In this document: piece after piece, positions 2,302 to 63,971 of the stretch
How the letters are laid out: each line of letters starts with the position of its first letter
How positions within the stretch are numbered: position 1 is the stretch's first letter
Assembly: GCA_943736015.1 (NCBI GenBank)
Contig: OX031064.1
Coordinates: 37,437,361 to 37,501,360, forward strand
Source: Tridacna crocea
Lineage: Eukaryota; Mollusca; Bivalvia; Cardiida; Cardiidae
Direction: 5' to 3'
DNA length: 64,000 bases
Notes under the pieces: model-generated
The model's input: only the letters and a program-made list of their open reading frames with translations
Database searches by the model: none
Told to the model about the DNA's origin: nothing
Position numbers and translations under genes: made by a program

Positions 2302-2534
2302 TACCTTTTCCAACAATCCCAACTTTTAAATAGACTACACTGAGTAAAATTTCTTAAGAAAACATTGCGGGTAGAAAAGAAAATGCCTGTTATCACCTTT
2401 TTTTTTTTCTCATTTTCCCACAATGTTTTCTGACCTATCATAGACAATGCCACATTTTGAGCCACATTTCAGTTGTTGTCTAGAAATGCTATCAATTTGG
2501 ACAAGTCTGAATTCTAAGATTTGTGATCAGTTAA
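2302..2534. mobile_element. TTAA-MITE family 1, degraded copy
   Basis: Left short arm (caacaatcccaactttt), then GAAAACATTG..., a degraded core, and CCCACAATGTTTTCTGACC, ending with the long-arm remnant (caatttggacaagtctga) and TTAA at 2531-2534. That TTAA is also the left end of the following family 2 element. Confidence 0.6.
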
Positions 2535-2759
2535 CCCTTTACTCCATAGATACTCATTTCTACGCATTGCTTGTAGGAACCTTTGGAAAACATTGTGGCA
2601 AAAGGTGAAATTGCTCGTGACAAGCAATTTCACCTTTTGTCACAATGTTTTCAATGCTATCAAAAGGTGTCATATAAATATCAGAAACAGCTTCATCCTC
2701 GCTGTTTACTAGGGTCAATTAGAGATACCAAAGAAATGCCTTATGGGGTAAAGGGTTAA
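2531..2759. mobile_element. TTAA-MITE family 2, complete copy
   Basis: Begins TTAACCCTTTACTCCATAG and ends GGGGTAAAGGGTTAA. The central palindrome has arms AACATTGTGGCAAAAGGTGA and its complement around GAAATTGCTCGTGACAAGCAATTTC. The outer arms differ from family 1, but ends and layout are the same. Other copies start at 4063, 21088 and 26897. Confidence 0.8.
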
Positions 2760-2842
2760 AGAAATAATTATTTGTAAAAAAAATGAAATTGGCGATATCA
2801 TTTTTACATCAGTGAATCACTAGGATTTTTCATTGTATTTTT

Positions 2843-3119
2843 TGAGCTTGCCTGAGCACAAAGTGCTTAAGGTGAGCTTTTGTTATCACCAAAATGTCTG
2901 TAGTGCTTCGTCTGTTGTCAATCGTCCACAATTTCTTTAAACATCTATTTTCTCTACTGTTTTAGATGAGAACACAGAATTAATGTCTTGGCCCTGGTGT
3001 CTTCCTCATCATTGTTACCATCCTGCCAAAACTTTCTTTGACATTTTGTAATATCTCCATTACTTTTGAAGATATTTACTTCAAACTTGAAAAAATTGTT
3101 TATCGAAATGGGAACTCAT
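2843..3119 (+). repeat. 5' fragment of a pearl/Helentron-like repeat with terminal hairpin
   Basis: Starts with a hairpin-forming GAGCTTGCCTGAGCAC / GTGCTTAAGGTGAGCT pair, the 5' hallmark of a repeat very common in molluscs. Related 5' ends occur at 15262 and 25986. It is cut off by the MITE starting at 3120. Confidence 0.5.
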
Positions 3120-3399
3120 TTAACCCTTTACCAAACGACAAAATTTTAGACTGGTCCAAATAAAAGTATTTGCAGATGACAAAATGAATGTGACTAAATA
3201 ATCAAAATTTGTTTTAGGAAGGGAAGAAAACATTGTGGAAAAAGGAGAAAATGCTGGTAACCAGCATTTTCTCCTTTTCCCACAGTGTTTTCTATCCTTC
3301 CCGGAACAAATTTCAATTTTTCAGTCACCTTTATTTTGTGGCCTGCAAATGCTTTCAATTGAAATCCATCTAAAATTTTGGCATGTGGTAAAGAGTTAA
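3120..3399. mobile_element. TTAA-MITE family 1, full foldback form (two long arms)
   Basis: A 280-bp element flanked by TTAA at 3120-3123 and 3396-3399. Both halves carry the long arm (CAAAATTTTAGA..., then the ATTTGCAG/ACAAAAT module, then GGGAAGG.AGAAAAC), so the whole element is one imperfect palindrome of about 140-bp arms meeting at GCTGGTAACCAGC. Most other copies have one long and one short arm. Confidence 0.85.
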
Positions 3400-3572
3400 T
3401 TCTATTCAAATGATCTGCTTTGCTTTCATACAAGTAGAAAACATTATGAGAAAAGGAGAAAATGTTGGTTACAAAGGAGAAAATGTTGGTTACCAGCACT
3501 GCCCGCAATACTTATAAAAAACATTATTTCTTGGGGTTTATTAAAAATCTGGATTGTGTGGTAAAGGATTAT
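3400..3572. mobile_element. TTAA-MITE family 1, degraded copy with a duplicated core piece
   Basis: Contains AGAAAACATTATGAGAAAAG, then GGAGAAAATGTTGGTTAC twice in a row, and a right end ATTGTGTGGTAAAGGATTA. The core palindrome is lost, with one arm partly duplicated. Confidence 0.55.
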
Positions 3573-3612
3573 ATGAGTATTATAATTATTTGTTTTTGTC
3601 CGTTTTTGTGCA

Positions 3613-3748
3613 GAATCCACTGAAGTAGAGGATAACTTTAATCAGAAGTGAGACAGCGAATTCGGTCACATTTTGATAACACCACTGGAAATATTGTGGT
3701 CCGGGGCAGACATATGAGAAGCTGGAGAAAGCTGATACATGCAGAAGG
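3613..3748 (+). other. Possible non-coding or decayed exon with splice-like borders
   Basis: Bounded by a good acceptor (tttttgtgcag) and donor (gcagaag/gtaagc). All three forward frames hold stops, so it would be untranslated, decayed or not an exon. One frame shows ESTEVEDNFNQK and another YEKLEKADTC, faintly like the linker of ABCG2 proteins, but this is not convincing. Confidence 0.15.
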
Positions 3749-3772
3749 TAAGCCCATTATTTTTATGAACAG

Positions 3773-3955
3773 TTAACACCTAGGCTGCTAAGCGCAACTC
3801 ACTGACCTTTTGTGGATAGTGTAGTCTGATCTTTGATCTAGACTGTCCGATAAGTAGATAACATTCCCCTGAACATAACTTTGAAATAGCAATCTTCGGG
3901 TTTTTACTATGGAATTGAAAATTTCAGTTTAGTTATCCAGTAGGATAAGGGTTAA
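3773..3955. mobile_element. TTAA-flanked MITE family 3 (GATCAGACTGCA core)
   Basis: Flanked by TTAA at 3773-3776 and 3952-3955. Starts TTAACACCTAGGCTGCT and ends GGATAAGGGTTAA. It contains GTAGTCTGATCTTTGATCTA, one half of the palindromic core seen complete at 11307 and 37349. A close relative lies at 37299-37510. Confidence 0.65.
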
Positions 3956-4062
3956 CAAAAGTTTTTGCTGACTCCATAGATCTAGAATAGTCTTTTGGAA
4001 ATGTCTTGATCTTAGAAGACTTTGATTGTCCACCACATGGATGACATCTTGTAATTTCTGCA

Positions 4063-4292
4063 TTAAACTCTTTACCCTATACGGCAGTTCTATGGCATCT
4101 CTAATTGACCCTAAATATCAGCAAGGATGAAGCTGTTTTTTATGTGTATAGGACACCTTTTGATAGCATAGAAAACATTGTGGCAAAAGGTGAAATTGCT
4201 CGTCACTAGCAATTTCACCTTTTGCCACAATGTTTTCCAAAGGTTCCTACAAGCAATGTGTAGAAATGAGTATCTATGGAGTAAAGGGTTAA
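4063..4292. mobile_element. TTAA-MITE family 2, complete copy, inverted relative to 2531
   Basis: TTAAACTCTTTACC... to GAGTAAAGGGTTAA. The core GGCAAAAGGTGAAATTGCTC faces its complement with a few central bases. Outer arms match the 2531 copy in the opposite order. Confidence 0.8.
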
Positions 4293-4339: not shown

Positions 4340-4567
4340 GTAACTCTTTACTACACAATCCCAACTTTCAATGACCCAGAGAAAGAAAGTTTTGAAAACA
4401 TTGTGGGAAAAGGAGAAAATTCTGGGGAGCAGCATTTTCTCCTTTTCCCACAATGTTTTGTACCCTTTCCATATCAAATTTTCAATTTTTGATTCACATT
4501 CATTTGTTGTCTGCAAATGCTTTCAATTTGGACCAGTCTAAAGTTTTGTCGTTTGGTAAAAAGTTAA
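4340..4567. mobile_element. TTAA-MITE family 1, short arm plus long arm
   Basis: Left short arm (ACACAATCCCAACTTTCAAT, then GAAAGAAAG), central palindrome of about 60 bp (ACATTGTGGGAAAAGGAG with its complement), right long arm ending GTTTGGTAAAAAGTTAA. The left TTAA has mutated to GTAA. Confidence 0.8.
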
Positions 4568-4729: not shown

Positions 4730-5453
4730 TTCCGGTAAATATCTCTTCTCAGAACCCTTATGAAAACTGGATGAAACTTAATAATACATGTGTTCCTTAT
4801 GGTTGTCTAAGACCAGCTTGAAAATTGGTTATGTTGGGTTAAAAATGGATGCTAGGTCAGAGCTTAGAAAAACATTGTGTATATTCCACATTTTCAGTTA
4901 GGTGTTTTTGAAAGTTGGGCAGTATACTTGCCTTAACCCTTTCCCAAACAATCCCTGGTTTTTACGGATCTGGAAACGTAGCCTTTTGAAAACATTGTGG
5001 GAAAAGGAGAAAATGCTGGTAAACCAGCATTTTCTCCTTTTCCCACAATGTTTTCTACCCTATCATAGACAGAAATCATCCTTTCAGCAAGAGTTGAATT
5101 GTCGTCTGCAAAATGCTTTCAATTTGGTCTAGTCCAAAAGTTTGTCGTTTGGGAAAGGGTTAATAATATCTCAGATTAGTTTGAAAATAAATTATGTCAG
5201 GTCAAGAATGAGGTGAAAATGTGGGTTATGTTCCGACGAAAACTAGGTCAGAAGATCAAATTTTAGAAAAACCTTGTGTACTCTTTAGGCTGCATTGTCA
5301 GTCAAATACTTATTAAAGTTGGTCAGAATTATTGTTTTGATGATGTCTTGGATGAGTTTGAAAATGGGTCACATCAGGGCAAAAACAAGGCCACTTGGAA
5401 CTGTGTGTGAAAAAACTTGTTTATGCTCTAGATGCAACATTACCAGTCCAATA
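4730..5453 (+). repeat. Degenerate tandem array (AAAGTTGGTCAG units), left part
   Basis: Successive units share GTTGGTCAG, GATGAGTTTGAAAATGGGTC, AACTAGGTCA and AAAAACCTTGTGTA with about 150-bp spacing. The array is interrupted by a MITE at 4933 and by the pogo-like element at 5454, and resumes at 8081. This repeat type is widespread in molluscs. It is non-coding. Confidence 0.65.
4933..5163. mobile_element. TTAA-MITE family 1, CCCAAAC-ended subfamily
   Basis: Ends are TTAACCCTTTCCCAAAC and GTTTGGGAAAGGGTTAA. The left arm carries CCCTGGTTTTTACGG. The core is the standard GGGAAAAGGAG palindrome, with three central bases (GGTAAACC). Inserted in the 150-bp tandem array. Same subfamily: 10604, 14983, 17240, 36739. 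Confidence 0.85.
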
Positions 5454-8412: not shown

Positions 8413-11400
8413 GTAAGATCCATAATCATTTTATTGTTACAGTAAATAAGTGAAATCATGGCAGCCGATGTAACTATTTATGCCTTATTGCAGTTTGAAC
8501 ACGGTATTCTTTCAAAGTCACTGACTGCTTTCCCACATCACTAGCATGGTAACAACCATCAGTGGCGAGAGAAAACTGTATCTTACTGCAATACCTATCA
8601 TGTGTGAAAAGACAATGGCAGAACTGAGCGGGATTCAAATCCATTTCAAATCCTATTATGTTACAGAGTAAATGAGCTCTTTTACCCAAGTATGATAAAT
8701 GAATACATTTTGACAATTCTTTTCTGTCTGAATTTAATCCTATTGTTCCTGGCCACATGGCTAATTGAAAGTATTTGCAGACAAACAATTGAATTTTACA
8801 CATATAAAGGAGTGAGTCTTTGAAAGGGAAGAAAACATTGGTAAAAGGAGAAAATGCTGGATACCTGGATTTTGTCCTTTACCCACAATGTTTTCAAAAG
8901 TCCTTTACCTCTGGGTTGTTGAAATTCTGGATTGTTGCATAAAGGGTTTTACCTTTCATGATATATTACTAACAACTATTGTTTCATCTAGGTGTTGACT
9001 ATGATTATATTTGGTGTTGTTGTTGGTGCCATCTACTGGCAGATTGATGACTACAGTCCCTCCGGACCTCAGAGCAGGTCAGTACATGTATTTGTACGCT
9101 TCTTATCAGCCATGATGATATTGCCACGATCAGGTTGTGCCTAGAGTATGTTACTTCATTTACAATATCTTAACTCTTTACCACATGATAAAATTTTAGA
9201 CTGGTCCAAATTGAAAGCATTTGCAGACGACAAAATAAAGGTGACTGAAAAATTGAAATTTGTTCTAGGAAGGGTAGAAAGCACTGTGGGAAAAGGAGAA
9301 AATGCTGGTTACCAGCATTTTCTCCTTTTCTCACTGTGTTTTCAAAAGGCTTCTTTCTTAGGGGCGTCAAAAGTAGGGATTGTGTGGTAATGGGATAAGT
9401 TATTGAATTTTTCACAGAACTCTTTACAGAATGACAAAATTTTAGACCTGTGTGAACTGAGAGCCTTTGCAGATAACATTTTAAATGTGACCCAAATTCT
9501 AGAGTTTTTATGTGAAAGAGTAGAGAACACAGCTGGAGAAAATGTTGGTTAACAGTAGGTCTTCGTATTCCCAAAACCTTTTCCAGTACCTTCTCTTTTC
9601 AGGGATGTTAAAACATGAGATTGTGTGGTAAAGGGTTAAAGAACCCAGAGCAGATTTTCACAAAATGAATTGGATGAAGAGAAAGATTTGGAAAACCCAG
9701 AAGTAGTGAAACATTTGTAAAATACAAAAACATATTATTTACTGATTGGTTGAGGAGGGTCCTCTGTAGCTTAGTTTTAAGTTACAGAATTATCAAACTG
9801 TAACCTAGCCTGGCATACAGGCCCTGCATTTAAGTCATTCTAATAAAAAAGGTTCACAACTATAGCAAAGTCACAGAAATATGTGTTGTTATTTGCCTTT
9901 CTTCTGAAATACAGGTTAAATCAGGTATCAGAACATTGAGAACAATGTTTTTCATTTGGCAGTTTTACTGGATGATTTTGTTTTAATGAAAAGGCTCTAT
10001 TTAACAGACTGACACCAGTCTAGCTGTAACCTTACTTGAAGCTATGGGCTTTTCTCAGAAAAAACTGTCAAGAGCCATAGTCTTGTACTGGTGGAACCCA
10101 GGACATACATGGATAAGTGAGCAGTTTCAGTGATCTGTCTGAAATTATGTTGAAAGTGGTGAGAAATACCATTCAATCAATCAATCAAGAAACTTTTTGA
10201 TTTCAGGGTTGGAACTTTCTTCATCATAGTGAACATGGTATTTTGCAATTTGTCAGCTATGGAAGTGTTTAAGAACAGAGCAGTTTTCTTGTAAGTACAG
10301 TGTTTTCAGAGTCAAGAAATGCATTGCCTTTCTCTTACTTCATTGCATTCTTTAAAGAGCATTAATCCTTAGAGCACCATACTTTTAAAAATTAAACCTT
10401 ACCGTGCCAAATGAATCTAACAGACTTGTTAACCTTAGGGCGCCCAATAAACAGACCTTTTCATCTAAGAAACACAACCCAAATAATGACAGTTTTGCAG
10501 TTGGTTTCTTCTATAGAGCTTCACCAAAGCAGGTGTTTTGTTCAGCCTGATCTTGATCTACACTGTTTTCAAAGGTAACTATAGTTGTTAAAGAATCTAA
10601 GGGTTAACCCTTTCCCAAATGACAAACTTTTGGACAAGGCCAAACTGAAAGCATTTGCAGACGACAAACTCTTGCTGGAAAGATGATTTCTGTCTATGAT
10701 GGGGTATAAAACATTGTGGGAAAAGGAGAAAATGCTGGTTAGCAGTATTTTCTCCTTTTCCCACAATGTTTTCAAAAAGCTACTATTCCAGACCCATAAA
10801 AACCAGGGATTGTGTGGGAAAGGGTTAAGTGTACAAATTAGAGCAAAATACTTACAAAATTATGACTGCTTTTGTCTATAGTGTTTCAGGAAGGCAGACT
10901 GTAGATCGAAGATCAGACTGCACATTTTGTACATTATGATATTAATCTTCACTAGCTGCAAAGGCAACTGTGTTTGTTAACTCATTACCAAATGACAAAA
11001 TTTTAGACTGGTCCAAATTGAAAGCATTTACAGACGACAAAATAAAGATGACTGAAAAATTGAAATTTGTTCTGGGAAGGGTGGAAAACATCGTGGGAAA
11101 AGGAGAAAATGCTGGTTACCAATATTTTCTCCTTTTCCTACAGTTTTTTCAAAAGGCTTCTTTCTCAGGGGTGTCAAAAGTTGAGATTGTGTGGTATTGG
11201 GTTCAAGCCTTTAAGGGTTATGTTTACAAATAAGAACAAAATAGTTACAAAATCATGAAAGATTTTTGAAAGTTTCTTGTCTAAAGTGTTTCTGGAAGCA
11301 GACAGTATAGATCAAAGATCAGACTGCACATTTTGTGCAGTTTGATCTTGATCTACACTGGCTACAATGATAAATGTTGTCACAAATATTGTCACAAAGG

Positions 11401-14160
11401 TTTTTTTTTAATGAAAATAATAAATAAAGAACAGACATTAGCAAGACTGTGCTCTTTTTCAGAAATGAGAATGTGAGTGGTTTCTATGGAATGTCCTCCT
11501 ATTTCATCTCCATTGTGGTCTGTGACATTATACCAATGAGATTCCTACCTATGGTCTGCTTCTCAGCTGCGATCTACTCTATGTTGGGTAAGGTTCCATA
11601 ACTATCCCAAGTTAAATACCATAGTCTACTGAATACCATAGCTTTTAGAGTATGGTAGCTTATGACATGATATGATATACAGTTCCCTTTTCAGATAAGG
11701 GAGTTCCAAGATCATGCTACACAAAATAAACAGCCTGAAGAAAAGGAGAAAATGTTGGTGACCAGTATTTCCTCCTTTTCCCACAATATTTCCTACCCTG
11801 TGACGGAAAAATATCAAGATGCGTTGTACGTTCGATTTGTCATCAGTAAACACTTTCAGTTTGGACAAGTCCAAAATTTTGTCATCTGTTGAGTGTCCTT
11901 GAAGTATATAGATAATCAATATGTATCAAGATTTGCTCTAAAAAAGAAAACATAATTTTTAGAAAAATCTATCATGGAAATTTCACAGGCAACTAGTGAA
12001 TGTGGCTCAAAAAGCTAGGGTAGAAATTTTTTGAGAAAAAAAAAAAGATGGGAAATGCATATTCAAGCATATTCTCCTATATCTCATTACCAAATGACTA
12101 TATTATAGACGTGTCCAAATTGAAAGCATTTGCAGACGACAAAATAAAAGTGACTGAAAATTTGAAATTTGTTTTGTGAAGGGTAGAAAACATTGTGGGA
12201 AAAGGAGAAAATGCTGGTTACCAGCATTTTCTCCTTTTCCCACAATGTTTTCTAAAGGCTTCTTTCTCAGGGGCGTCACAAGTTGCGATTGTGTGGTAAT
12301 GGGATATACACCATTTTTCAAATGCCTTCTTTCTTGGGGTCTTTAAAAAGATGAATAGCAGCGATCTAGTGAAAAATGAAATCTGTTTACAGGGTACAGA
12401 TCTAAGTGTGACAGATTCCTGCTGTATTTCCTGTCCCTTTTCCTGGTGTCCCTATCTGCTTTGGCCCTTTCATTCCTGCTGAGCGTCATCATTAGAATAT
12501 TTTCTATTGCCAGCCTGCTTATTGCCATGTGCTATGTTATCATGCTGGTGAGTGAGAGGTTTATCTACTTTATTTTTATACGCCCGTCAAAGACGGGACG
12601 TATTATGGGATCACCCGTGGCGGGCGGGCAGCATCCAGTTCTTTGTCCCGTGCATATCTCCAAAACTATTCTAGCTAGGGTTATGAAATTTCATGGGTGG
12701 ATAGATCTCATCAAGGGGGAGTGCAGTGCACAGAAACCATAACTCTTGCTCGCTTAATTTTTGAGTTATTGCCCTTTGTCGTTTTTCATACTTGAATTTT
12801 GTCCGGAGCACATCTCCAAAACTATACTAGCTAGGGTTATGAAATTTCATGGGTGGATAGATCTCATCAAGGGGGAGTGCAGTGCACAGAAACCATAACT
12901 CTTGCTTGCTTAATTTTTTAGTTATTGCCCTTTGTCGTTTTTCATACTTGAATTTTGTCAGGTGCATGCCCCAGCTTTACAACTTGGGGTAAGACGGGCG
13001 TATCTTGCGACAATTTGCCGCTCTTGTTCATATTCTAGAGCACATGAATGTATAATTTTCCTAAAAATTCAGTTAAAACTTTAGAGCACCAAATAAATCC
13101 AATAGACATTTTCAGTCAAAAATAAAACTCGGATAACTGTAATTTCAGTATTTTTCTGTTCTAGACTGTCTCTCTGCAAAGCCAACAGCGTAGATCAAAG
13201 ATCCGACTGCATTGTTTGTGTAGCTTATCTTGATCCATACTTAATACAAAAGTAACTATAGTTGTGAAAGATAATTTGATTTTAGAATTAACCTTGTAAT
13301 TCATTTACTCATGAAACAAGCCAAATGCAGGCAAGATTAAGAACTTCTCTGTAGTAAATGGATTTTTTGATGTTTGGTAAAAAATGTACAGAATAAAAAA
13401 AAAACGCCATTGTGAGATCGCTATATAAATTTTGCTGAAATGACTGAGGATCATGGTGATCCTCCAACATGGTACCTAATACATACATCTTTCAACTAGA
13501 TACTTACTTAAAATAGTTACTTAGGCTGGAAAGTGGGAATGAATACTCATTTACAGACGTGTGTATCGAAATCTTGTTGCGCAGAATGTCGATAGGTGAG
13601 TGCAACACTATTCTAAATGCCTGTACATTGTACAGGCACTTAAAATAATGTTGCACTCACGTATCGATGTGTAGTGTGATCTTTGATCTGGCATCCTTTC
13701 TGAAATGGCAGGATTTTTCCAGGCAAAAATACCTTCCGAAATTAGGGTAGATATTGTGTTTTTTATTACTTTCAGGTGAAATTTTCAGTTTAATTCATTT
13801 TTCAGGTTGACTGTTTACTAAACGACAGAATTTTACTCAGGTTCAACTTGAAAGCTTTTTGTAAACGCCAAATAAATACAGTTTAAGATGTGAAATTTGT
13901 CCAAAAGGATGGGTAGAAAACATTATGGAAAATACTGATTTCTCGTATTTCCTCCTTTTCTAACAATGTTTTTAGAACTCAAGGTTGTTTAGTAAGGGTT
14001 AAAGGTCATTAGTTTAAGTACATTTATCTTCAAATTCTTTTACTACAAATTTGATATTTGTATATTTCAGGTGTTTAGTGGTTTACTGGTGAACCTCGTT
14101 CCACTTCCTGTTTTCCTGAGATGGCTGAAATATTTCAGTATCTTCAGATACAGTTTAAAT
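8365..14160 (+). CDS. ABCG2-like: ABCG2-like ABC half-transporter, transmembrane-domain exons (partial gene, possibly a pseudogene)
   Basis: Six exons, about 8365-8412, 8992-9077, 10207-10290, 11463-11587, 12393-12547 and 14071-14160, join in one frame with matching phases and GT-AG borders. The product follows ABCG2 from KNLVRNP through VVGAIYWQ (TM1), VGTFFIIVNMVF (TM2), the SGFYGMSSYF loop, DIIPMRFLP (TM3), ALALSFLLS (TM4), and IASLLIAMCYVIML then FSGLLVNL (TM5), to LKYFSIFRYSLN. ABCG proteins are plasma-membrane efflux half-transporters that dimerise, with an N-terminal ATPase and six membrane helices. Missing here are the ATPase (Walker A, signature, Walker B), which should lie upstream of the window or be lost, and the third extracellular loop with TM6. 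An in-frame TGA at 8362-8364 interrupts the first exon. Introns are crowded with MITEs. Human exon borders fall at equivalent residues. Confidence 0.75.
8771..8952. mobile_element. TTAA-MITE family 1, degraded, in the ABCG2-like intron
   Basis: GGGAAGAAAACATTGGTAAA, GGAGAAAATGCTGGATACC, a damaged right core (TTGTCCTTTACCCACAATG) and the short arm ending ATAAAGGGTTTTACC. It ends about 40 bp before the TM1 exon. Confidence 0.6.
8992..9077 (+). CDS. ABCG2-like: ABCG2-like exon: TM1 (VLTMIIFGVVVGAIYWQIDD)
   Basis: Acceptor ttcatctag, donor AG/gtcagt. Phase 0 in, phase 2 out. GVVVGAIYWQIDDYSPSGPQ matches the LGLVIGAIYFGLKNDSTGIQ segment of human ABCG2 residue for residue in length. The final AG joins G of the next exon to make arginine. 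Confidence 0.85.
9170..9398. mobile_element. TTAA-MITE family 1, long arm plus short arm
   Basis: Starts TTAACTCTTTACCACATG and ends GTGTGGTAATGGGATAA. The core GGGAAAAGGAGAAAATGC with TGGTTACCA centre is almost intact. The right TTAA is mutated. Confidence 0.8.
9418..9639. mobile_element. TTAA-MITE family 1, degraded copy
   Basis: Left ACTCTTTACAGAATGACAAA, a shortened core GGAGAAAATGTTGGTTAAC, right short arm with ATTGTGTGGTAAAGGGTTAA at 9636-9639. Confidence 0.65.
10000..10192 (+). repeat. SINE-like repeat, 3' part with (CAAT)n tail
   Basis: Ends ATGTTGAAAGTGGTGAGAAATACC followed by CAATCAATCAATCAA. The same 3' domain with CAAT repeats is at 62985-63152 and, inverted, at 34573. No clear A/B box remains in this copy. 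It abuts the acceptor of the TM2 exon. Confidence 0.5.
10207..10290 (+). CDS. ABCG2-like: ABCG2-like exon: TM2 and following loop (VGTFFIIVNMVFCNLSAMEV)
   Basis: Acceptor tgatttcag, donor TT/gtaagt. Reads R-VGTFFIIVNMVFCNLSAMEV-FKNRAVFL, aligning with AGVLFFLTTNQCFSSVSAVE-LFVVEKKLFI of human ABCG2. Hydrophobic first half, basic end, no stop. Confidence 0.85.
10429..10607. mobile_element. TTAA-flanked MITE family 3
   Basis: TTAACCTTAGGGCGCCCAAT at the left and GAATCTAAGGGTTAA at the right. Contains AGCCTGATCTTGATCTACAC. Its right TTAA (10604-10607) is also the left end of the next MITE. A related stub (TTAATCCTTAGAGCACC) precedes it at about 10363. Confidence 0.65.
10604..10828. mobile_element. 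TTAA-MITE family 1, CCCAAAC-ended subfamily, inverted relative to 4933
   Basis: TTAACCCTTTCCCAAATGAC to TGTGTGGGAAAGGGTTAA, with TTAA on both sides. Core TTGTGGGAAAAGGAGAAAAT with centre GCTGGTTAGCAG. Right arm carries AAAAACCAGGGATTG. Confidence 0.85.
10890..10976. repeat. MITE family 3 core fragment
   Basis: GTAGATCGAAGATCAGACTG followed by CACATTTTGTACATTATGAT. The right half of the palindrome has decayed. A sister copy with an intact palindrome lies at 11290-11360. Confidence 0.5.
10977..11205. mobile_element. TTAA-MITE family 1, long arm plus short arm
   Basis: TTAACTCATTACCAAATGAC at the left. The core has decayed on the right (CCTACAGTTTTTTC). Ends GTGTGGTATTGGGTTCA, where TTAA is mutated. 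Confidence 0.8.
11290..11360. repeat. MITE family 3 palindromic core
   Basis: TAGATCAAAGATCAGACTGC, ACATTTTGT centre, then GCAGTTTGATCTTGATCTAC. A near-perfect palindrome of about 26-bp arms. Confidence 0.65.
11463..11587 (+). CDS. ABCG2-like: ABCG2-like exon: re-entrant loop and TM3 (SGFYGMSSYF...DIIPMRFLP)
   Basis: Acceptor gctctttttcag, donor G/gtaagg. NENVSGFYGMSSYF and CDIIPMRFLPMVCFSAAIYSML match HEYISGYYRVSSYF and SDLLPMRMLP...YFML of human ABCG2, including the conserved D-(L/I)-(L/I)-P-M-R. This is the most diagnostic exon. Confidence 0.9.
11735..11893. mobile_element. TTAA-MITE family 1, truncated right part
   Basis: GAAAAGGAGAAAATGTTGGT, ACCAGTATTTCCTCCTTTTC, then the long arm (AAACACTTTCAGTTTGGACA, GTCCAAAATTTTGTCAT). 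Left arm missing. Confidence 0.6.
12080..12306. mobile_element. TTAA-MITE family 1, long arm plus short arm, intact core
   Basis: Left end ATCTCATTACCAAATGAC, perfect core (TTGTGGGAAAAGGAGAAAAT and complement around GCTGGTTACCAGC), right short arm ending GTGGTAATGGGATA. Both TTAA sites are mutated. It ends about 90 bp before the TM4 exon. Confidence 0.8.
12393..12547 (+). CDS. ABCG2-like: ABCG2-like exon: TM4 and start of TM5
   Basis: Acceptor ctgtttacag, donor CTG/gtgagt. Reads GYRSKCDRFLLYFLSLFL, VSLSALALSFLLS and IASLLIAMCYVIML. Same length and hydrophobic pattern as the human TM4-TM5 exon. A pearl-like element starts only about 30 bp beyond the donor. Confidence 0.85.
12578..13026 (+). 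mobile_element. Pearl/Helentron-like element A, two 156-bp units
   Basis: 5' end ATACGCCCGTCAAAGACGGG, then CGTATTATGGGATCACCCGT, then two internal 156-bp units starting with GTCC (12645, 12801), and 3' end AAGACGGGCGTATCTTGCGA ... GCCGCTCTTG. It lies just inside the intron after the TM4-TM5 exon. Longer copies occur at 45588 and 55243, and a diverged one at 38788. Confidence 0.8.
13073..13291. mobile_element. TTAA-flanked MITE family 3
   Basis: TTAAAACTTTAGAGCACCAA to GATTTTAGAATTAA. Contains GTAGATCAAAGATCCGACTG and the opposing TATCTTGATCCATAC. Right arm AACTATAGTTGTGAAAGA matches the 10429 copy. Confidence 0.6.
13588..13668. repeat. Near-perfect zero-loop palindrome
   Basis: Left arm GAGTGCAACACTATTCTAAA then TGCCTGTACA. 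Right arm is its complement with about four mismatches, centred on a single T at 13628. Flanking TCGATAGG and GTATCGA extend the symmetry. It is followed at 13669 by a family 3 half-core (GTGTAGTGTGATCTTTGATC). Confidence 0.75.
13806..14004. mobile_element. TTAA-MITE family 1, degraded copy
   Basis: TTTACTAAACGACAGAATTT, GTAGAAAACATTATGGAAAA, TATTTCCTCCTTTTCTAACA, TTTAGTAAGGGTTAA. Core partly deleted. Confidence 0.6.
14071..14160 (+). CDS. ABCG2-like: ABCG2-like exon: end of TM5 and cytoplasmic-facing segment (VFSGLLVNLVPLPVFLRWLK)
   Basis: Acceptor tatatttcag, donor AAT/gtaagt. Exactly 30 codons, phase 0 both ends. VFSGLLVNL...WLKYFSIFRYSLN matches IFSGLLVNL...WLQYFSIPRYGFT of human ABCG2, after which the next exon should begin A-L-x-x-N-E. 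No convincing candidate for that exon was found to the right. Confidence 0.87.
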
Positions 14161-14601: not shown

Positions 14602-14835
14602 TTAACTCTAAACTATACCGAACAGCAAAATTTTAGACTAGTCCAAATTGAAAGCATTCGCAGACGACAATATTAATGTGAATCAAAAATTGAAATTTGA
14701 TTCGGGAAGGGCAGAAAACATTGTTGGAAAAGGAGAAAATGCTGGTTACCAGCATTTTCTCCTTTTCCCACAATGTTTTCAAAAGTTTTCTTTCTCAGGG
14801 TTGTTAAAAGTCGGGATTGTGTGACAAAGGGTTAA
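14602..14835. mobile_element. TTAA-MITE family 1, long arm plus short arm
   Basis: TTAACTCTAAACTATACCG to TTGTGTGACAAAGGGTTAA. Core AGAAAATGCTGGTTACCAGC complete, with one mismatch (TTGTTGGAAAAGG). Confidence 0.85.
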
Positions 14836-16054: not shown

Positions 16055-16230
16055 CCCAGCCAGTTAGTTCAGTAGTTAGTATATCTGACTAATGAATTAT
16101 TGATTGCAGGTTTGTTACATGGTTGAGACAAATTTTCTCTCCGCCAATTTTTCACCTGTTATCTCTGCTGCATGTGAGAAAAATAGTCAGTAGCTTGGAA
16201 AATAAATTGGATCAGCACTGGTGTGAGAAA
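16055..16230 (+). repeat. tRNA-derived SINE, degraded
   Basis: Head resembles a tRNA: CCAGTTAGTTCAGTAGTTAG (A-box region), CTGACTAATGAAT, then GATTGCAGGTTTGTTAC (weak B box). The body shares CAGTAGCTTGGAAAA with copies at 32570 (CAGTGGCTTGGAAAG) and 58011. It is a fossil and not a functional tRNA. Confidence 0.5.
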
Positions 16231-16235
16231 CAGAG

Positions 16236-16391
16236 GATAATCAACTGGTTATTTTTGATATGAAAAATATCTCGCGAGGATGCGTTGTTAGGCGTTGAAA
16301 AAACTAGTGCCCAGCACGAGTTTTTTCAACGCCTTATGACATATCCGAGTGAGATATTTTTCATATCAAAAATAACTAGTTGATTATTCTA
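16236..16391. mobile_element. Palindromic MITE of about 156 bp
   Basis: Left arm GATAATCAACTGGTTATTTT, TGATATGAAAAATATCTC, GGCGTTGAAAAAACT. The right arm is the complement (GTTTTTTCAACGCC, GAGATATTTTTCATATCA, AATAACTAGTTGATTATTC), around a short centre (agtgcccagcacg). No clear target duplication could be fixed. Confidence 0.75.
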
Positions 16392-16509
16392 TTTATTACA
16401 TACCTTATTAATATTATTGTTTTTAATTTTTCGTTTGAAAGTCGGGTGAAAAAAATGTAGTCAAAAAAAAGTAGTTCCTAAATTACGGCAGGAAGTGAAA
16501 GCAAAAGTT

Positions 16510-17042: not shown

Positions 17043-18473
17043 TAGGGCTGTAACGATACAGGAGGTCACGAATACGAATACACATCACGATACAGGGGCA
17101 CGAATACGAATATTTATTCATGAATATAAATTTTTTCCAGGCACAAAATGAATTATTTTTTCAATACTTTGGATTTAAAAAAAAGTCATATCAATATTAA
17201 TAAAGTAATGAAAAAAGCCTACCTGGCTTAAATATTGATTTAACCCTTTCCCAAAGGACAGATTTTAGACTCTTCCAAACTGAAAGATTTTGCAGAAGAC
17301 AATTTCAAATTTGATATAAATGGCAGAAAGTTCTTCAAATGGGTAGAAAACACTGTGGGAAAAGGACAATTTGCTGGTAACCAGCATTTTTTTCTTTACC
17401 CACAATATTTTCTGCTCTATCAAAGACATAAATCATCAATTTAGCAACATTCATTTTGTCTTCTGCAAATGCTTTCAATTTGGACAAGTGTAAAATTTTG
17501 TCATTGGGTAATGGGTTAATCAACTCTACTGCTTGATACTATGAAATTTTTTAAAATTGTAGGAAACATCTCACATATACTTCATGCACACTCTTAATCA
17601 TTTAAATCTGTAAACCTAAACATTGATATACCAATCATTTGTCATCTTCATACAAACTGGCCTCCAAATTAGTCTCAGAAAAAATATAAATAAATATCAA
17701 AGAAATATCTTTATAAGTTCATATATTTGAAAAAGTATACTAAAACAGGGCCAAATTGCCCATTTCTGGGCTTGACCGGTTATATTTTTCATTTAAGAAT
17801 GGTGCCGATTTGACTTCTTGTCACGTACGTTTGACAGACCGAGGCCGTTTTGACTAGGGGCCAACTTCATATTTGGCCAGTTTGACCTATTAAAATTGAT
17901 TGATATTTAGCTTGATATACTTTATTTCATGACTGCATAGAGATTTCTATTTTTATGACCTTGTCCCCCTCCTTTGCTCGTGGAAACCCGAAATATTTCC
18001 AAACGGGGAACTTAAATTTTGCCGGTGGACTAACAATCACGTCTGACATTTTGCGGGAAATACGAGCGACTCCTTTACAGCATGTCGCTATATTAAATGT
18101 TAAACCTGTACACAATGACGATAGAAAAAAAACTTTTATTTCTTAAATTCTTATAATTAATATTTAGAATAAAAAACCTATTTTCAATTGTTAATTCCAC
18201 TTCGTTTAGTTTACGACATATTGTGCCACAAAGCGTCATACAGACCTCTCAGAGTTGTTTCGCTTTCAATCATTGTTTACATCTACGTAAAATTGCCGAG
18301 ATTAGTTCTTCGGGCAAAATTTTGTTGAATTTGACCGAGCTGTAAGCATTCCGTATTATTTATGTTTGTTGTATTCGCCAATATTCGGTTCTCGGACAGA
18401 CGAATACGATACGTATTCGCCGGGAAAAAAATATTCGGTGCACCGAATATTCGAGTGTATCGTTACAGCTCTA
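17043..18473. mobile_element. hAT-like non-autonomous element with perfect 8-bp target duplication
   Basis: 1431 bp. Left end TAGGGCTGTAACGATACA; right end inverted TAGAGCTGTAACGATACA (17 of 18 match). Flanks are CTTAAAAC at 17035-17042 and again at 18474-18481, an exact 8-bp duplication as made by hAT transposases. The copy of the host repeat at about 20868-20886 shows the empty site (ggccttataacgctattc). Subterminal CGAATACG/CGTATTCG motifs cluster at both ends. No transposase frame is evident. A TTAA-MITE is nested at 17240. Confidence 0.85.
17240..17519. mobile_element. TTAA-MITE family 1, full foldback form, nested in the hAT-like element
   Basis: 280 bp with TTAA at both ends: TTAACCCTTTCCCAAAGGAC and GGGTAATGGGTTAA. 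Both halves are long arms (TTGCAGAAGACAA left, TTGTCTTCTGCAAATG right). Core GTGGGAAAAGGACAATTTGC / AGCATTTTTTTCTTTACCCA is partly diverged. Confidence 0.8.
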
Positions 18474-26896: not shown

Positions 26897-27120
26897 TTAA
26901 CCCTTTACCCCATAAGGCATTTCTATGGCATCTCTAACTGACCCTAAATAACAGCAAGGATGAAGCCGTTTCTTATGTGACACCTTTTGATAGCATAGAA
27001 AACATTGTGACAAAAGGTGAAATTGCTCGTCACGAGCAATTTCACCTTTTGCCACAAAGTTTTCCAAAGGCTCCTACAAGCAATGTGTAGAAATGAGTAT
27101 CTTTGGAGTAAAGGGTTTAG
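26897..27120. mobile_element. TTAA-MITE family 2, complete
   Basis: TTAACCCTTTACCCCATAAG to GGAGTAAAGGGTTTAG. Core GACAAAAGGTGAAATTGCTC facing GAGCAATTTCACCTTTTGCC with CGTCAC between. Right TTAA mutated to TTAG. Confidence 0.8.
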
Positions 27121-52025: not shown

Positions 52026-52254
52026 TTAACCCTTTACCAAACAACAAAATTTTAGACTGGTCCAAATTGAAAGCACTTGCAGATGACAAAATAAATATAA
52101 CTCAAAAATTGAGATTGGTTTCCAGCATGGTAGAAACATTGTGGGAAAAGGAGATAATGCTGGTTACCAGCATTTTCTCCTTTTCCTACAATGTTTTCTA
52201 AAACGCTTCTTTCTCAGGGTCGTAAAAAGTCAGGATTGTGTGGTAAAGAGTTAA
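52026..52254. mobile_element. TTAA-MITE family 1, long arm plus short arm
   Basis: TTAACCCTTTACCAAACAAC to TTGTGTGGTAAAGAGTTAA. Core TTGTGGGAAAAGGAGATAAT, GCTGGTTACCAGC centre, complete. Good reference copy. Confidence 0.9.
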
Positions 52255-52269
52255 GAATTATAACACCAA

Positions 52270-54790
52270 TATTGCATCTTTGATAAGGAATTTGATCTGT
52301 ATATTATTAGGGTAACTCTGATTTTTCAATAGAATATTGTTTGGAACCGATGTACCACTGTTTGAAGTAGAGTATTAGTGAGAGTAATTTTCTGTTTTTT
52401 TTTTCAATTGAATATTGTTCTCAACCAATGTAACACTGTTTGAAGTAGTGTATGATTGAGGGTAGTTTTAGGATTTTTTAGAAGAAAACTGGCCAGAAAC
52501 GAAGTATCAGTGTTTGAAGAAACGAAATGAATGAGGGTACTTTAAGGATTTTTTAATGCAATACTTTCTGGAACAATGTACATGTATCTGTTTTTGAAGT
52601 AGCATATAAATGGAGTACTCTAAGAATGTTTTATAAGAATACTTTCCAAACCCTATGTATCGGTGATTGAAGTAACATATGAATGAGGGTATTTTTAGGA
52701 TTTTTTAATGAAATACTGTCCAGCATCAATGTATCTGTGTTGGAAAAAGTACATGAATGAGGGTATTTTTAGGATTTTTTTTTTTAAAATAGAATATTGT
52801 CTGGAACCAATGTATCACTGTTTGTAGTATGGTATGTGAGGGTATTTTGGGCTTATTTTTTTTTTAATAAGAATACTGTCTGAAGCCAGTCTGTCAGTGT
52901 TTGAAGTATCATTGAATTGAAACATTTCATAGAATTTTTCAGTGGAATGCTGTCTAGAACCGATGTATCGGTAATGGAAGTTATAATGAATGAAGGAATT
53001 TTCAGGATTTTTTGGTGGAAAACTGTCTGTTACTGATGTATCATGTGTTGGAAGTAACATGTGAATGAGGGAATTTCTAGGATTTTTTTTAAATAGAATA
53101 CTGTTTAGAACAGAGGTATCTGTGTTGGAAGTAACATAATAATGAAAATAAAATTCAGGATTTTTTAATGACATGCTGTCTGGAACCGATGTATCATGTG
53201 TTGGAAGTAATGGATATGTATGAATGAAGGAATTTTTAGGATTTTTTAATAAACAACTATTTAGATCAGAAGTATATGTGTTTGAAGTAACCTATGAATG
53301 AAGGAAATTTCGGGATTTTTTAGTAGAATACTATTTGGAACTAATGTATCATGTGTTGAAAATAATGTATAGTTGATGGAATTTTTATAATTTTATAATA
53401 GAATAGTGTTTAAAACAAAAGTATCTGTGTTGAAAGTAAAGTATGAATGAAGGAATTTTCGGGATCTTTTAGTGGAATACTGTTCGGAACCAATGTATCA
53501 CGAGTTGATAGTAGCATATGAATGAATTTCTAGGGTTTTTTAAAACAGAATACTCTTTAAAACAGAAGTATCCATGTTTGAAGTAACACAGGAATGAAGG
53601 AATTTTCAGGATTTTTTATTGGCATACTGTCTTGAACCAATGTAACGTGTGTTTGAAGTAACATATGAATGAGTGAATTTTTAATAGAATACTGTTTAAA
53701 ACAGAAATATCATTGTTGGAAGTAACATGTAAATGAGAGTATTTTTAGGATTTTTTAAAAGATTTCTGTTTGGTACCCAAGTGTCTATATTAGAAGTAGT
53801 GCATATTAGGAGTATTTTTAGCATTTTTTATAGAGTGCTGTCTGAACCGATGTGTCTGTGTTGGAAGTAACATGAGTGAGAGTAGTTTTTTTTTTTAATT
53901 TTATAAGAAAACTATCTGGAACCAATGTATCAGTGTTTGAAGTAACACATGAGTGAGAGTATTTAAGGATTTTTATATGAAAACTATCCAGAACAATATA
54001 CCAGCATTTGAAGAAACAAAATTAATGACGAAACTTTTAGGATTCTTTCAATGGAATACTGTTTGGAACTATGTATCTGTGTTTGCAGTAGCATATGAAT
54101 GGGCTATTTTTAGAATGTTTTATAAGTATACTTTCCAAACCCTAAGTATCAGTGATGAATGAGGGAATTTTTTAGGATTTTTTTAATAGAATACTGTTCA
54201 GAACAGAAGTATCTCTGTTGGAAGTAACATATAAATGAAGAAATTTTCAGAAATTTTTACTGGAATACTGTCTGAAAGTAACATACAAATGAAGGAATTT
54301 GTTGGATTTTTTTGATAGAATACTGTCTAAAACAGAAGCATATGATTGGGGTATTTTTAGAATGTTTATAAGAATACTTTCTGAACCCTATGGTTCAATG
54401 ATTGAAGTATGATATGAATGGGGGTATTTTTTAGGATTTTTCAATGGAAAACTGTCCAGATTCAATGTGTGTGTGTTGGAAATAGTGCATATATGAGGGT
54501 ATTTCTTGGATTTTTTTTAAATAGAATATTGTCTGGAAGCAATGTATAACTGTTTGAAATAGCATATGAATGAGATACTTATAGGGTTTCTTTATTAGAA
54601 TACTGTCTGGAGCCAATTTATCAGTGTTTGAAGTAACACATAATTGAGAATATTCTCAGGATTTTTCAGTGGAATGCTGTGTAGAACCAATATATCTGTA
54701 TTGGGAGTGACATAATGTATTATAAATGAAGGAATTTTCAGGAATTTTTAGTGGAATACTGTCTGGAACCAATGTATTATGTGTTGGGAG
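52270..54790 (+). repeat. Minisatellite of about 75-bp units, roughly 33 copies
   Basis: Consensus blocks: GTATCAGTGTTTGAAGTAAC, ATATGAATGAGGGTATTTTT, AGGATTTTTTAATAGAATAC, TGTCTGGAACCAAT. GAATGAGGG occurs at 52681 and 52755, 74 bp apart. Units are diverged. Minus-strand ORFs here are repeat artefacts. Confidence 0.9.
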
Positions 54791-55242: not shown

Positions 55243-56682
55243 ATACGCCCGTCGAAGACGGGACGTATTATGGGATCACCCGTGGCGGGCGGGCGTCCGG
55301 GCGGGCGGGCGTCCGGGCGGGCGGGCGGGCGGGCGGGCGGGCGTCCGGGCGGCGTCCAGTTCTTTGTCCGGAGCATATCTCCAAAACTATACTAGCTAGG
55401 GTTATGAAATTTCATGGGTGGATACATCTCATCGAGGGGGAGTGCAGTGCACAAGAATCATAACTCTTGCTCGCTTAATTTTTGAGTTATTGCCCTTTGT
55501 TGTTTTTCATACTTGAATTTTGTCCGGAGCATATCTCCAAAACTATACTAGCTAGGGTTATGAAATTTCATGGGTGGATAGATCTCATCAAGGGGGAGTG
55601 CAGTGCACAAGAATCATAACTCTTGCTTGCTTAATTTTTGAGTTATTGCCCTTTGTTGTTTTTCATACTTGAATTTTGTCCGGAGCATATCTCCAAAACT
55701 ATACTAGCTAGGGTTATGAATTTTCATGGGTGGAAAGATCTCATTGACGGGGAGTGCAGTGCACAAGAATCATAACTCTTGCTTGCTTAATTTTTGAGTT
55801 ATTGCCCTTTGTTGTTTTTCATACTTGAATTTTGTCCGGAGCATATCTCCAAAACTATACTAGCTAGGGTTATGAAATTTCATGGGTTGATAGATCTCAT
55901 TGACGGGGAGTGCAGTGCACAAGAATCATAACTCTTGCTTGCTTAATTTTTGAGTTATTGCCCTTTGTTGTTTTTCATACTTGAATTTTGTCCGGAGCAA
56001 ATCTTCAAAACTATAGTAGCTAGGGTTATAAAATTTCATGGCTGGATAGATCTCACCGAGGGGGAGTGCAGTGCACAGGAATCATAACTCTTGCTTGCTT
56101 AATTTTTGAGTTATTGCCCTTTGTCGTTTTTCATACTTGAATTTTGTCCGGAGCATATCTCCAAAACTATACTAGCTAGGGTTATGAAATTTTATGGGTG
56201 GATAGATCTCATCGAGGGAGAGTGCAGTGCACAGGAATCATAACTCTTGCTCGCTTATTTTTGAGTTATTGCCCATTGTTGTTTTTCATACTTGAATTTT
56301 GTCTGGAGCATATCTCCAAAACTATAGTAGCTAGGGTCATGAAATTTCATGGCTGGATAGATCTTACCGAGGGTGTGTGCAGTGCATAAGAATCATAACT
56401 CTTGCTTGCTTAATTTTTGAGTTATTGCCCTTTGTCGTTTTTCATACTTGATTTTTGTACGGAGCATATCTCCAAAATTATAGTAGCTAGGGTTATGAAA
56501 TTTCATGGGTGGATAGATCTCATCCATGGGGAGTGCAGTGCACAGGAATCACAACTCTTGCTTGCTTTATTTTTGAGTTATTGCCCTTTGTTGTTTTTCA
56601 TACTTGAATTTTGTCCGGTGCATGCCCCACCTTTACAACTTGGGGTAAGACGGGCGTATCTTGCGACAATTTGCCGCTCTTG
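55243..56682 (+). mobile_element. Pearl/Helentron-like element A, eight 156-bp units
   Basis: ATACGCCCGTCGAAGACGGG, a long GGGC tract (about 55284-55352), then eight units from 55366 to 56612 (1247 bp, 156 each), then the GTCCGGTGCATGCCCC exit and ATTTGCCGCTCTTG. Longest A copy in the window. ORFs on either strand across the GGGC tract are artefacts. Confidence 0.9.
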
Positions 56683-61711: not shown

Positions 61712-61940
61712 TTAACCCTTTACCACACAATCCCGACTTTCAATGACCCTAACAAAATAGGCCTTTTGAAAACATTGAGGGAAAAGGAGAAAATCCTGGT
61801 AACCAGCATTTTCTCCTTTTACCACAATGTTTTCTCCCCTTACAAGGAGAAATTCCATCATTTGACCCACACTGTATTGTTGTCTGCAAATGCCTTCAAT
61901 TTATAAAAGACAACTTTTTTGTCGGTTGGTAAAGAGTTAA
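61712..61940. mobile_element. TTAA-MITE family 1, short arm plus long arm, intact
   Basis: TTAACCCTTTACCACACAAT to TTGGTAAAGAGTTAA. Core GGGAAAAGGAGAAAATCCTG with complement around GGTAACC. TTAA intact on both sides. Confidence 0.9.
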
Positions 61941-61943
61941 CTT

Positions 61944-62047: not shown

Positions 62048-62399
62048 GAGGCCCTCAAAGTCCATTTGAGATGCTTCTTACGTCTGTCTGTCTATCTGTC
62101 TCACTGTGGTTTTTCTGTGCACTCCATGTCACTTGTTCCTTTACTTTATAAGATAATTCATACATGTTTCCCTAGATGTGACTACATACAAAGCAGGGTA
62201 TCACAAGCTAAAGTTTGTTTTTAAAGCTAACATTCACTACAATAATATTTCTTGAACCCCTTTTCCAACAGTGAAAATGTTTCACAGACATCTCTCATTA
62301 ATTATCCGACATGAAATGATATGCAGAGTGAAGGCAGAATTTTATTGGAAACTAATTTTCTTGTTCCAGTGATGTTTATTTGGTAGCAGATGATGTTTT

Positions 62400-62660
62400 C
62401 TCCAGTCTGCCACCTTGTATTTTTTAGGACTACTTTCTTTCTAAACCTGCTAGCTGCTTTCCTTCATAAACAAATGACATACTGCAAATTATAATAATTT
62501 TTAGGCACTGTACTCTTTCTAAACATGCCAGCAACTTTCCCTCATTAGCAAATGACAGATTGCACATAAGAATTCATTTTTAAACACTCTATTCATTCTA
62601 GATCCTGTAGGTGCTTTCCTTTATAAACAAATGACAGATTACAAATAACAGCACATTAAC
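62400..62660 (+). repeat. Tandem repeat of about 97 bp, nearly three copies
   Basis: TTTCTAAACCTGCTAGCTGC, TTTCTAAACATGCCAGCAAC and TTCTAGATCCTGTAGGTGCT, each followed by TTTCC(C/T)T..., AACAAATGACAGATT and AAATAA. Non-coding. Confidence 0.7.
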
Positions 62661-62805
62661 TTTCCAACAATGCAATTAAACAAATATCTTTTATACATTA
62701 CTGTATGGATTGTCTAAACATTACAATGATAAGATTTTTTTTCATCATCCTGAGGCCTCAGATTATCATGCTTTTTTCTTTTTATAATTCTTTAACATAG
62801 TTTAG

Positions 62806-62960
62806 TTTAAACATATTTTATTTGCAACATTTTACATACAAAATATAATAAGATAATTACAAAGTATACTTAGAATATGCTACAAAATGGATTGGAACAA
62901 AAGCATAAGCTTATACTGTTCCTTTCCATGGATTCTAGATGGTATCAGTCCTATTTTATT
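62806..62960 (-). mobile_element. LINE 3'-end-like fragment
   Basis: The complement ends TTGCAAATAAAATATGTTTA then AACT, matching the LINE 3' terminus at 840-858. Upstream AAGCTTATGCTTTTGTTCCA, ATCCATTTTGTAGC parallels 43905-44060. Confidence 0.45.
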
Positions 62961-62984
62961 CATTTATTAATTGAATTTTAACAT

Positions 62985-63152
62985 AGTTTCACTGATTGTA
63001 GTTTTTTTTTACATAGTTTTACCACTTCAGAGCCCTTAAGCTTAATACTGGTGAAAACCAGGAAAATATGAATTATTATATGAGCTGTTGCCATGATATG
63101 ACTAAAGTAATGTTGAAAGCGGCATGAAACACCATTCTTTCAATCAATACAT
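62985..63152 (+). repeat. SINE 3' half with CAAT tail
   Basis: GAGCTGTTGCCATGATATGA, CTAAAGTAATGTTGAAAGCG, GCATGAAACACCATTCTTTC, then CAATCAAT. Matches the minus-strand SINE at 34573. The 5' part is unrelated or decayed. Confidence 0.6.
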
Positions 63153-63214
63153 AGTTTTACCATACATTATGTGCATTAAAGTATTACTGGCATACAAATA
63201 CATGTACATATACG

Positions 63215-63450
63215 CAGTTAGTGGAGAAGTATATTGGCACCATCTTCTGCATCCATACATCCATCCATTTTTCCGTCCCTTCGTCCATCTGTAAGTGTAT
63301 GTCTATTTCTTGTGGATTCAGCTCCTCCCACGTTTCTTGACAGATTTGGATGAAATTTTAACGGACTGTTTCTCATCATGTGATCAAATTGTGTATTGTC
63401 AGGATTTTGTGATGTGGTGGTATGTATTGTGACAGTGGCACTCTTGTTTT
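63215..63450 (+). repeat. Dispersed repeat, second copy of 57040-57250
   Basis: GTATATTGGCACCATCTTCT, TTTTCCGTCCCTTCGTCC, GCTCCTCCCACGTTTCTTGA, CAGATTTGG, TTTCTCATCATGTGATC, ending GTGGCACTCTTGTTTT, which has the CTCTTGTT ending seen in element A. Confidence 0.6.
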
Positions 63451-63679
63451 AGTAAACATGATTCACATTAGCATTATATACAATGACAATAATTTCATGA
63501 TGACAAATTACTGTATGTACACACTGTCCTAAAGCTGGCTACAATGAGTTGGATGGTATCCAATGACACCCCTGCAATATTTATACAGATAATAATACAT
63601 TGTGACCATACATTGATATTTTACATGAAAAGTTTTCAATGTATGAGCATGAAGGGGGACCAGTATCCGTGGACATGCA

Positions 63680-63742
63680 TCATCCTTTTACCAGACGACA
63701 ATATTTTAACTTTATCCAAATTCAAACATTGCAGATGACAAT
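63680..63742. mobile_element. TTAA-MITE long-arm stub interrupted by another copy
   Basis: CTTTTACCAGACGACAATAT, TTTAACTTTATCCAAATTC, TTGCAGATGACAA, then a fresh MITE begins at TTAA 63743. Confidence 0.6.
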
Positions 63743-63971
63743 TTAACCCTTTACCAAATAACAAAATTTTGGCCTGGTCCAAATTGAAAGCATTTGCAGA
63801 TGACAAAATAAACTTGACTCAAAAACTGAAATTTGATTTGGAAAGGGTAGAAAACATTGTTGGAAAAGGAGAAAATGCTGGTTACCTGCATTTTCTCCTT
63901 TTCCCACAAAGTTTTCTGAAGGCTTCTTTCTCAGGGGCATCAAAAGTAGGGATTGTGTGGTAATGGGTTAA
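63743..63971. mobile_element. TTAA-MITE family 1, long arm plus short arm, intact
   Basis: TTAACCCTTTACCAAATAAC to TTGTGTGGTAATGGGTTAA. Core TTGTTGGAAAAGGAGAAAAT with GCTGGTTACCTGC centre. Inserted into the truncated copy just to its left. Confidence 0.9.

Follow-up and report, generated by a model that had tools for sequence, protein, structure and literature searches.

The genome of Tridacna crocea carries a very abundant family of TTAA-flanked miniature inverted-repeat transposable elements (MITEs) built around a 67-bp palindromic core, which we describe here from a 64,000-nt stretch of contig C9 (positions 37,437,361-37,501,360; hereafter the window) and from the rest of the 1.05-Gb, 31-contig assembly. 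We think it somewhat probable that these are non-autonomous elements of piggyBac type in which the core is a cis-acting, two-fold symmetric part, and that mainly sources with a symmetric core found new lineages. All results are sequence-based and come from this one genome, and subfamily history was deduced without a rooted tree.

Members of the family were searched for with nhmmer using profiles of three subfamilies (A, B and C) at E values up to 0.01, with block-shuffled sequence as the control. The search found 42 non-overlapping segments in 39 merged places, covering 7,510 of the 64,000 nt (11.7 % of the window), compared to none in the shuffled control, so that the dense TTAA-flanked MITE family reported in the initial annotation of this DNA is real; three of the 42 segments are weak (E 0.003-0.007). 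That annotation had also counted at least 25 palindrome-centred elements. The core scan does list 25 places, of which 23 belong to the family while two (13628 and 16312) are other dyads. The pattern TTAACCCTTT[AC]CC occurs exactly 10 times forward and 5 times as its inverse in the window, and both ends (up to three mismatches per end) are present at 19 places. Over the 353 kb sampled the same two-end criterion yields 83 pairs compared to 12 with the reversed pattern, and 4 of the 83 are unlike any subfamily. Beyond the window this sample is biased, being drawn from piggyBac surroundings and from the first MITE ends of contig C1.

The family occupies 8.0 % (110 places) of 244 kb of other loci, a non-random set picked for piggyBac genes; extrapolation from this share gives several hundred thousand copies for the genome. 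Exact patterns, whose genome counts are floors, were also counted. The terminal sequence TTAACCCTTTACC was found 66,634 + 66,849 times (133,483 places) compared to 28 + 20 for the reversed control, and inverted pairs of it 216-246 bp long number 5,696 places. The arm sequence GAAAACATTG with its inverse 40-54 nt away is found at 155,762 places, its mirrored C variant at 37,481 and the core centre, with 30 specified bases, at 191,599, the reversed-pattern control being zero for all three. No match was obtained in Rfam, for the core pattern in the viral or the prokaryotic collection, or in Pfam for 10 of the 46 listed open reading frames of the window, and searching the literature for the letters of the element returned a single short match in each of four papers, all unrelated by title.

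Consensus lengths are 229 bp for A (54 copies, some near-identical duplicates), 229 bp for B (8 copies) and 228 bp for C (8 copies). The commonest length is 229 bp, found in 22 of the 70 sample elements with ends (duplicates counted), with 8 further elements at 230 bp. The initial annotation had given a range of 180-280 bp; the 280-bp copies (3120-3399 and 17240-17519) have two left halves. The standard 229-bp element is short, non-coding and below transposase size. It is asymmetric, with TTAA at each end, a left part of 107 bp (106-107 bp across the three subfamilies), the 67-bp core and a right part of 55 bp. The location of the core is identical in A, B and C (positions 108-174 of 229 in A and B), so that the palindrome is off-centre and not central as had been described. 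The arms of about 30 bp with almost no loop hold up, and are exactly two arms of 33 nt with 1 nt between them; in A the core reads GAAAACATTGTGGGAAAAGGAGAAAATGCTGGT, one base, then the inverse.

Among the matches listed of the 5,696 places, 39 elements selected by their 13-bp termini and by length (216-246 bp) had both 80-nt ends read. In every one of the 39 just one of the two ends holds the core arm, and in 37 the opposite end has the left-half signature. Exact junction patterns, which fit A and C but not B, give 52,861 left-right, 215 left-left and 77 right-right elements genome-wide; a sample of 122 contains 88 left-right, 3 left-left and no right-right elements and 31 with one side unclassified. 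Frequent exchange of halves through the core was considered and rejected, given that left-left and right-right elements together make up 292 of 53,153. We also considered whether the core arms derive from the terminal repeat, for which the best of 12 comparisons (p 0.008) is not significant once corrected.

The core is the best-conserved internal block of the element. Between the A and B consensus sequences 57 of 67 core positions are identical, compared to 41 of 94 in the left flank (p 0.31), 21 of 40 in the right flank (p 0.009) and 81-88 % at the ends; between A and C the core is identical at 67 of 67 positions and the flanks at 77-79 %. Identity of the core compared to the ends is 100 % and 88 % for A-C, 85 % and 75-81 % for C-B, and 85 % and 81-88 % for A-B. 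Except between A and B, the interior is better kept than the ends, as in the coral elements called CMITEs (see below), in a comparison where the ends were part of the search. Within A (45 deduplicated copies), non-CpG positions differ from the consensus by 7.3 % in the core, by 10-11 % at the ends and by 15 % in the flanks, the difference between core and flank having a p value of 3e-7; in the seven B copies this difference goes in the same direction and is not significant. The initial annotation held that the interior has become a foldback, a view that these comparisons do not support. Since the palindrome is common to three subfamilies and most conserved internally, we take it to be probably ancestral and under maintenance.

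Decay of standing copies mostly affects one arm at a time, and spreading lineages are largely symmetric. Five arm positions distinguish A from B, and four of these are changed on both arms. At arm site 8 the genome contains 155,762 T/T cores, 37,481 C/C cores and 16,974 mixed cores, while independent arms would give 71,832 mixed; we think that the mixed cores are mostly later decay of symmetric copies. For a variant, D, that involves two of the four positions, the counts are 191,599 A/A, 10,018 D/D and 10 mixed, with cores changed at a single site uncounted. One alternative is descent only, in which the founder was palindromic by chance and the mirrored differences among few subfamilies are coincidental. 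The mirrored variants do amount to few lineages, namely A, B, D and the site-8 variant along with some minor ones, but the four mirrored differences out of five between A and B and the scarcity of unmatched A/D cores argue against coincidence, and we find this explanation quite improbable.

To describe change in resident copies we used cores from the sample plus GAAAACATTG matches, in which the outer ten bases are fixed by the search; 46 of 198 cores were excluded because of excessive decay or a shift. The 126 A-type cores have 327 one-arm changes, 20 mirrored changes and 12 unmatched double changes. Permutation gives a mean of 6.5 mirrored changes and none of 1000 permutations reaches 20; the site-8 variant contributes 9 of the 20. 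With lineage changes mostly mirrored and resident decay mostly confined to one arm, palindromy would be selected or restored in source lineages.

Restoration could also be the consequence of mutation only, with a functionless core whose arms are repeatedly made alike by template switching during replication. This mechanism, known to produce multi-base compensatory changes in one event (PMC8794818), predicts multi-base mirrored changes; the left-left (215) and right-right (77) elements suggest occasional sequence exchange through the core. However, the ratio of 327 one-arm to 20 mirrored changes in resident A cores implies that correction is infrequent in standing copies, and mutation only predicts matching arms, not a core kept between subfamilies whose left flanks are alike only as shuffled sequence would be. 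Because template switching explains matching arms and not a core that outlasts its flanks, we favour a cis-acting role and regard mutation only as unlikely, though deserving serious attention.

The initial annotation proposed that transcripts would form hairpins able to feed small-RNA pathways. On that idea, processing of a 33-bp stem of the core to small RNAs would be what keeps the symmetry. The RNA fold of one perfect core (71 nt, from the copy at 12079-12307) has an energy of -54.6 kcal/mol compared to a shuffle mean of -12.0. Any such palindrome folds, however, and arms 1 nt apart leave no room for a designed loop. In A cores, mismatches that would be G-U pairs on one strand or on the other are about equal in number (86 and 93), so that resident copies show no tolerance of wobble specific to one strand. 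We consider the hairpin RNA explanation improbable.

Individual copies in the window include the following (+, forward strand; -, reverse strand):
2531-2759, -: B copy, 229 bp, TTAA at both ends, core 2586-2652
3120-3399, +: left-left copy, 280 bp, 102-nt arms, two left halves round the core, TTAA at both ends
4064-4292, +: B copy, 229 bp, TTAA at right end only, core 4171-4237
4340-4567, -: A copy, TTAA at one end only
4933-5163, -: C copy, TTAA at both ends
9170-9398, +: A copy, 229 bp, core 9277-9343, both arms having C at site 8
9418-9638, +: A copy, left end degraded
10604-10828, +: C copy, TTAA at both ends
10977-11205, +: A copy, 229 bp
12079-12307, +: A copy, perfect 33/33 core at 12186-12252, ends ATAT instead of TTAA
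14607-14835, +: A copy, core 14714-14780, left end degraded, TTAA at right end
17240-17519, -: left-left copy, 280 bp, TTAA at both ends
21088-21271, +: B copy with internal deletion, 184 bp, TTAA at both ends
26897-27119, +: B copy, core 26998-27064
36739-36955, -: C copy, TTAA at both ends, centre-altered core with 27-nt arms and 7 nt between them
37084-37302, -: A copy, TTAA at both ends
52026-52254, +: A copy, 229 bp, TTAA at both ends
61712-61940, -: A copy, 229 bp, TTAA at both ends
63743-63971, +: A copy, 229 bp, TTAA at both ends, core 63850-63916

TTAA is intact at both ends in 11 of the 24 long window copies with ends inspected. Eight copies had been singled out earlier as the best. 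Six of them (3120, 4933, 10604, 52026, 61712 and 63743) do have TTAA at both ends, while the copy given as 12080 has ATAT at each end and that given as 14602 has TTAA at the right end only. The ATAT at both ends of 12079-12307 reflects either matching mutations or insertion at a non-TTAA site.

The target-site TTAA is duplicated on insertion. We compared 79 junctions with possible empty sites and obtained 167 spanning matches, many of them MITE against MITE or gapped; the clean empty sites were picked by eye among the matches listed. The insertion in locus L054 corresponds to an empty site in L012 where 50 of 50 joined nt are identical and a single TTAA is present. Single-TTAA empty sites were likewise found for L047 in L050 (gapless, 89 % over 54 nt) and for L004 in L041 (gapless, 94 % over 36 nt). 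In L009 and L045, which are also related to the L054 site, the target reads TTGA, and the window copy at 4933-5163 has a gapless element-free paralogue in L049 (79 %) in which TTAA is not intact. The duplication, on which the earlier interpretation had been staked beforehand, is thus upheld on three clean sites.

A search of the genome found 118 piggyBac transposase matches, many with open frames. Together with the single-TTAA empty sites, they support the earlier description of the elements as non-autonomous, TTAA-targeting and piggyBac-like, and we infer that the transposase is of piggyBac type. We examined 50 loci (L009-L058) covering 61 of the 118 matches, with 57 outside. Six piggyBac families are well delimited by matching TTAA-flanked repeats, two of these from a single copy; a seventh (L038) is tentative, as another repeat pair scored equally. 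All delimited families have TTAA and CCC tips, with terminal repeats that differ from those of the MITE. They resemble it in these tips and in a terminal repeat of at least 12 bp; unlike it, they are 2.6-3.7 kb long with a transposase frame, their repeats diverge from the MITE's soon after CCC, and the first 300 bp at either end contain no 67-bp core.

By the TTAACCCTTTACC counts, the MITE itself agrees with the piggyBac-type pattern of a CC[C/T]T tip and a terminal inverted repeat of 12-19 bp, although the left tip of A is mostly CTC in the sample; its CCC or CTC ends are near the CC[C/T]T of piggyBac ends described in the relevant part of PMC2872659. TTAA targets are common to Kolobok elements too, according to the passages available in PMC6004289, which would also allow a transposase of Kolobok or another TTAA-targeting superfamily. 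Kolobok ends, however, begin RR (AG in Xenopus copies) in the same source, and neither RR nor the AGGRR terminal motif is found in the MITE, whose ends begin CCC or CTC. Judging by the ends, we consider a transposase of this other kind to be highly improbable.

Two ends in the piggyBac loci resembled the MITE by score. The 3' end of L057 matched the right half of A with a score of 21, the maximum in shuffled sequence being 12; as this match coincides with MITE hits inside the L057 element, we interpret it as a nested MITE copy. The 5' end of L056 (score 12 against 11 in the shuffle) was not taken as a MITE-like end. A preference of piggyBac insertions for MITE edges was also considered and dropped, with too few cases: 2-3 of 15 delimited insertions adjoin a MITE end, for comparison with 143 of 2,252 TTAA sites lying at MITE ends. 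Loci L025-L029 and L034 are alike across their whole 4 kb and have an open piggyBac frame and MITE insertions, with the repeat ends lying beyond. Mostly partial or broken piggyBac matches form clusters at 4.48-4.61 Mb of contig C13 (about 130 kb) and at 56.71-56.76 Mb of contig C8 (about 50 kb).

In five of the seven delimited piggyBac families, L038 included, a palindrome of 14-18 bp lies close inside one of the two ends and not the other (uncorrected p values up to 0.033 in tests of 14 ends; p 0.06 for a sixth family). These short palindromes are of unlike sequence and lie inside the 3' ends of L011, L020, L057 and L038 and the 5' end of L032. In six uncorrected tests on the MITE, the left end of C has TTTGGACTAGTCCAAA (p 0.013), of which the A left-end version keeps 6 of 8 pairs, and the right ends and B have no subterminal palindrome. 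These features fit the relevant parts of PMC7351741 and PMC11707139, according to which paired C-terminal domains of piggyBac bind a palindrome near a tip, the dimers of piggyBac and piggyBat bind palindromes of unlike sequence, and an asymmetric end arrangement is required in cells for piggyBac. A need for asymmetric ends would predict the rarity of left-left and right-right elements.

We hypothesize that a transposase supplied in trans would act on the CCC or CTC tips, insert the element into TTAA and duplicate the TTAA. The element would require two unlike ends, left and right, with the 67-bp palindromic core between them. The core would be a cis-acting part, performing best when two-fold symmetric, and may be bound by a protein of two-fold symmetry, for instance a dimer of the transposase. 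Alternatively it may form a DNA hairpin during propagation. Symmetric sources would mainly found new lineages, with template switching between the arms as the likely route by which a one-arm change is copied to the other arm.

Several observations weigh against this explanation. The fifth A/B difference, at site 13, affects a single arm, and B copies vary there. B shows a weak excess of mirrored changes (20 cores; 5 mirrored changes, with 39 of 1000 permutations as high), and in D (6 cores) no excess is seen (208 of 1000 permutations). At site 12 of A a G>T change is found in the right arm of 8 copies and in the left arm of 7; such shared single-arm variants imply that imperfect cores can propagate or recur. 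Independent mirrored events are few, the large counts mostly reflecting descent. The left tip of subfamily A is by majority CTC, not CCC, in the sample. Transposase-bound palindromes are 14-19 bp long and near the tip, not 67 bp and interior, in the parts of PMC7351741 and PMC11707139 that describe them. Finally, the autonomous element with the same termini that was anticipated earlier was not found in the 50 loci, where several families could not be delimited; this lowers the claim of a named parent and not that of the piggyBac class.

The data hint that mirror symmetry itself helps the element spread. A bolder form of the proposal, which we see as rather unlikely, is that a step of the spread reads the interior symmetry, so that a cruciform, a hairpin or a dimer-bound core licenses transposition or copying. 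If true, this would make the element a DNA transposon whose interior holds a structural checkpoint, something further than the near-end site recognition that the sources consulted describe for piggyBac.

The nearest precedents are the coral CMITEs and a repeat of the bivalve Lucina pectinata. The Acropora CMITEs share TTAA duplications, CCCT tips, a relation to piggyBac and an internal region kept across families with different ends, whose origin and role are described as unknown there too, but they are about 100 bp long with an estimated 1,600 copies in A. millepora (PMC2872659, in the passages concerned). No word beginning palindrom occurs in the text of that paper, and the likeness is drawn from its description. 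Repeat 1 of Lucina pectinata, found in introns and promoters of haemoglobin genes, has a 210-bp consensus whose terminal inverted repeats measure 30 bp and whose central region of 77 bp is self-complementary (96 %). Unlike our family, it has, in the sections of PMC4732748 concerned, no identified target duplication, no assigned transposase and no genome-wide count; the two are compared by description. The Xenopus T2-MITEs are also a long-lived TTAA-targeting MITE family with many subfamilies, but have Kolobok-type AGGRR ends, and no word beginning palindrom occurs in the main text of PMC6004289 as available. Mirrored arm changes in a MITE are not described among the matches listed, in a search of titles and opening abstracts with most subscription papers outside it.

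How some MITEs attain enormous copy numbers despite rare presumed parents is an open question on which this family bears, since an internal block, besides the ends, appears to be under lineage-level constraint. The mirrored changes would constitute a natural mutational scan of what the core must preserve, and the very many copies provide material for measuring the correction or loss of palindromes in an animal genome.

Other repeats were observed. Positions 780-848 of L046 hold a perfect palindrome with 34-nt arms and a 1-nt centre that somewhat resembles the MITE core and lies within a multi-hairpin repeat. It was considered as a diverged core, a reading not adopted as it sits in a different, larger inverted repeat, although the two may be homologous. 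Both dyads outside the MITE family lie in the window: an inverted repeat at 16220-16404 (91-nt arms, 81 % complementary, 3-nt spacer) and a dyad at 13589-13667 (39-nt arms, 90 %). Minisatellites with 156-bp units and very similar consensus sequences are found at 12642-12966, 45680-46581 and 55363-56623 (2.1, 5.8 and 8.1 copies), and a degenerate tandem array of about 25 units of 74 bp at 52400-54273.

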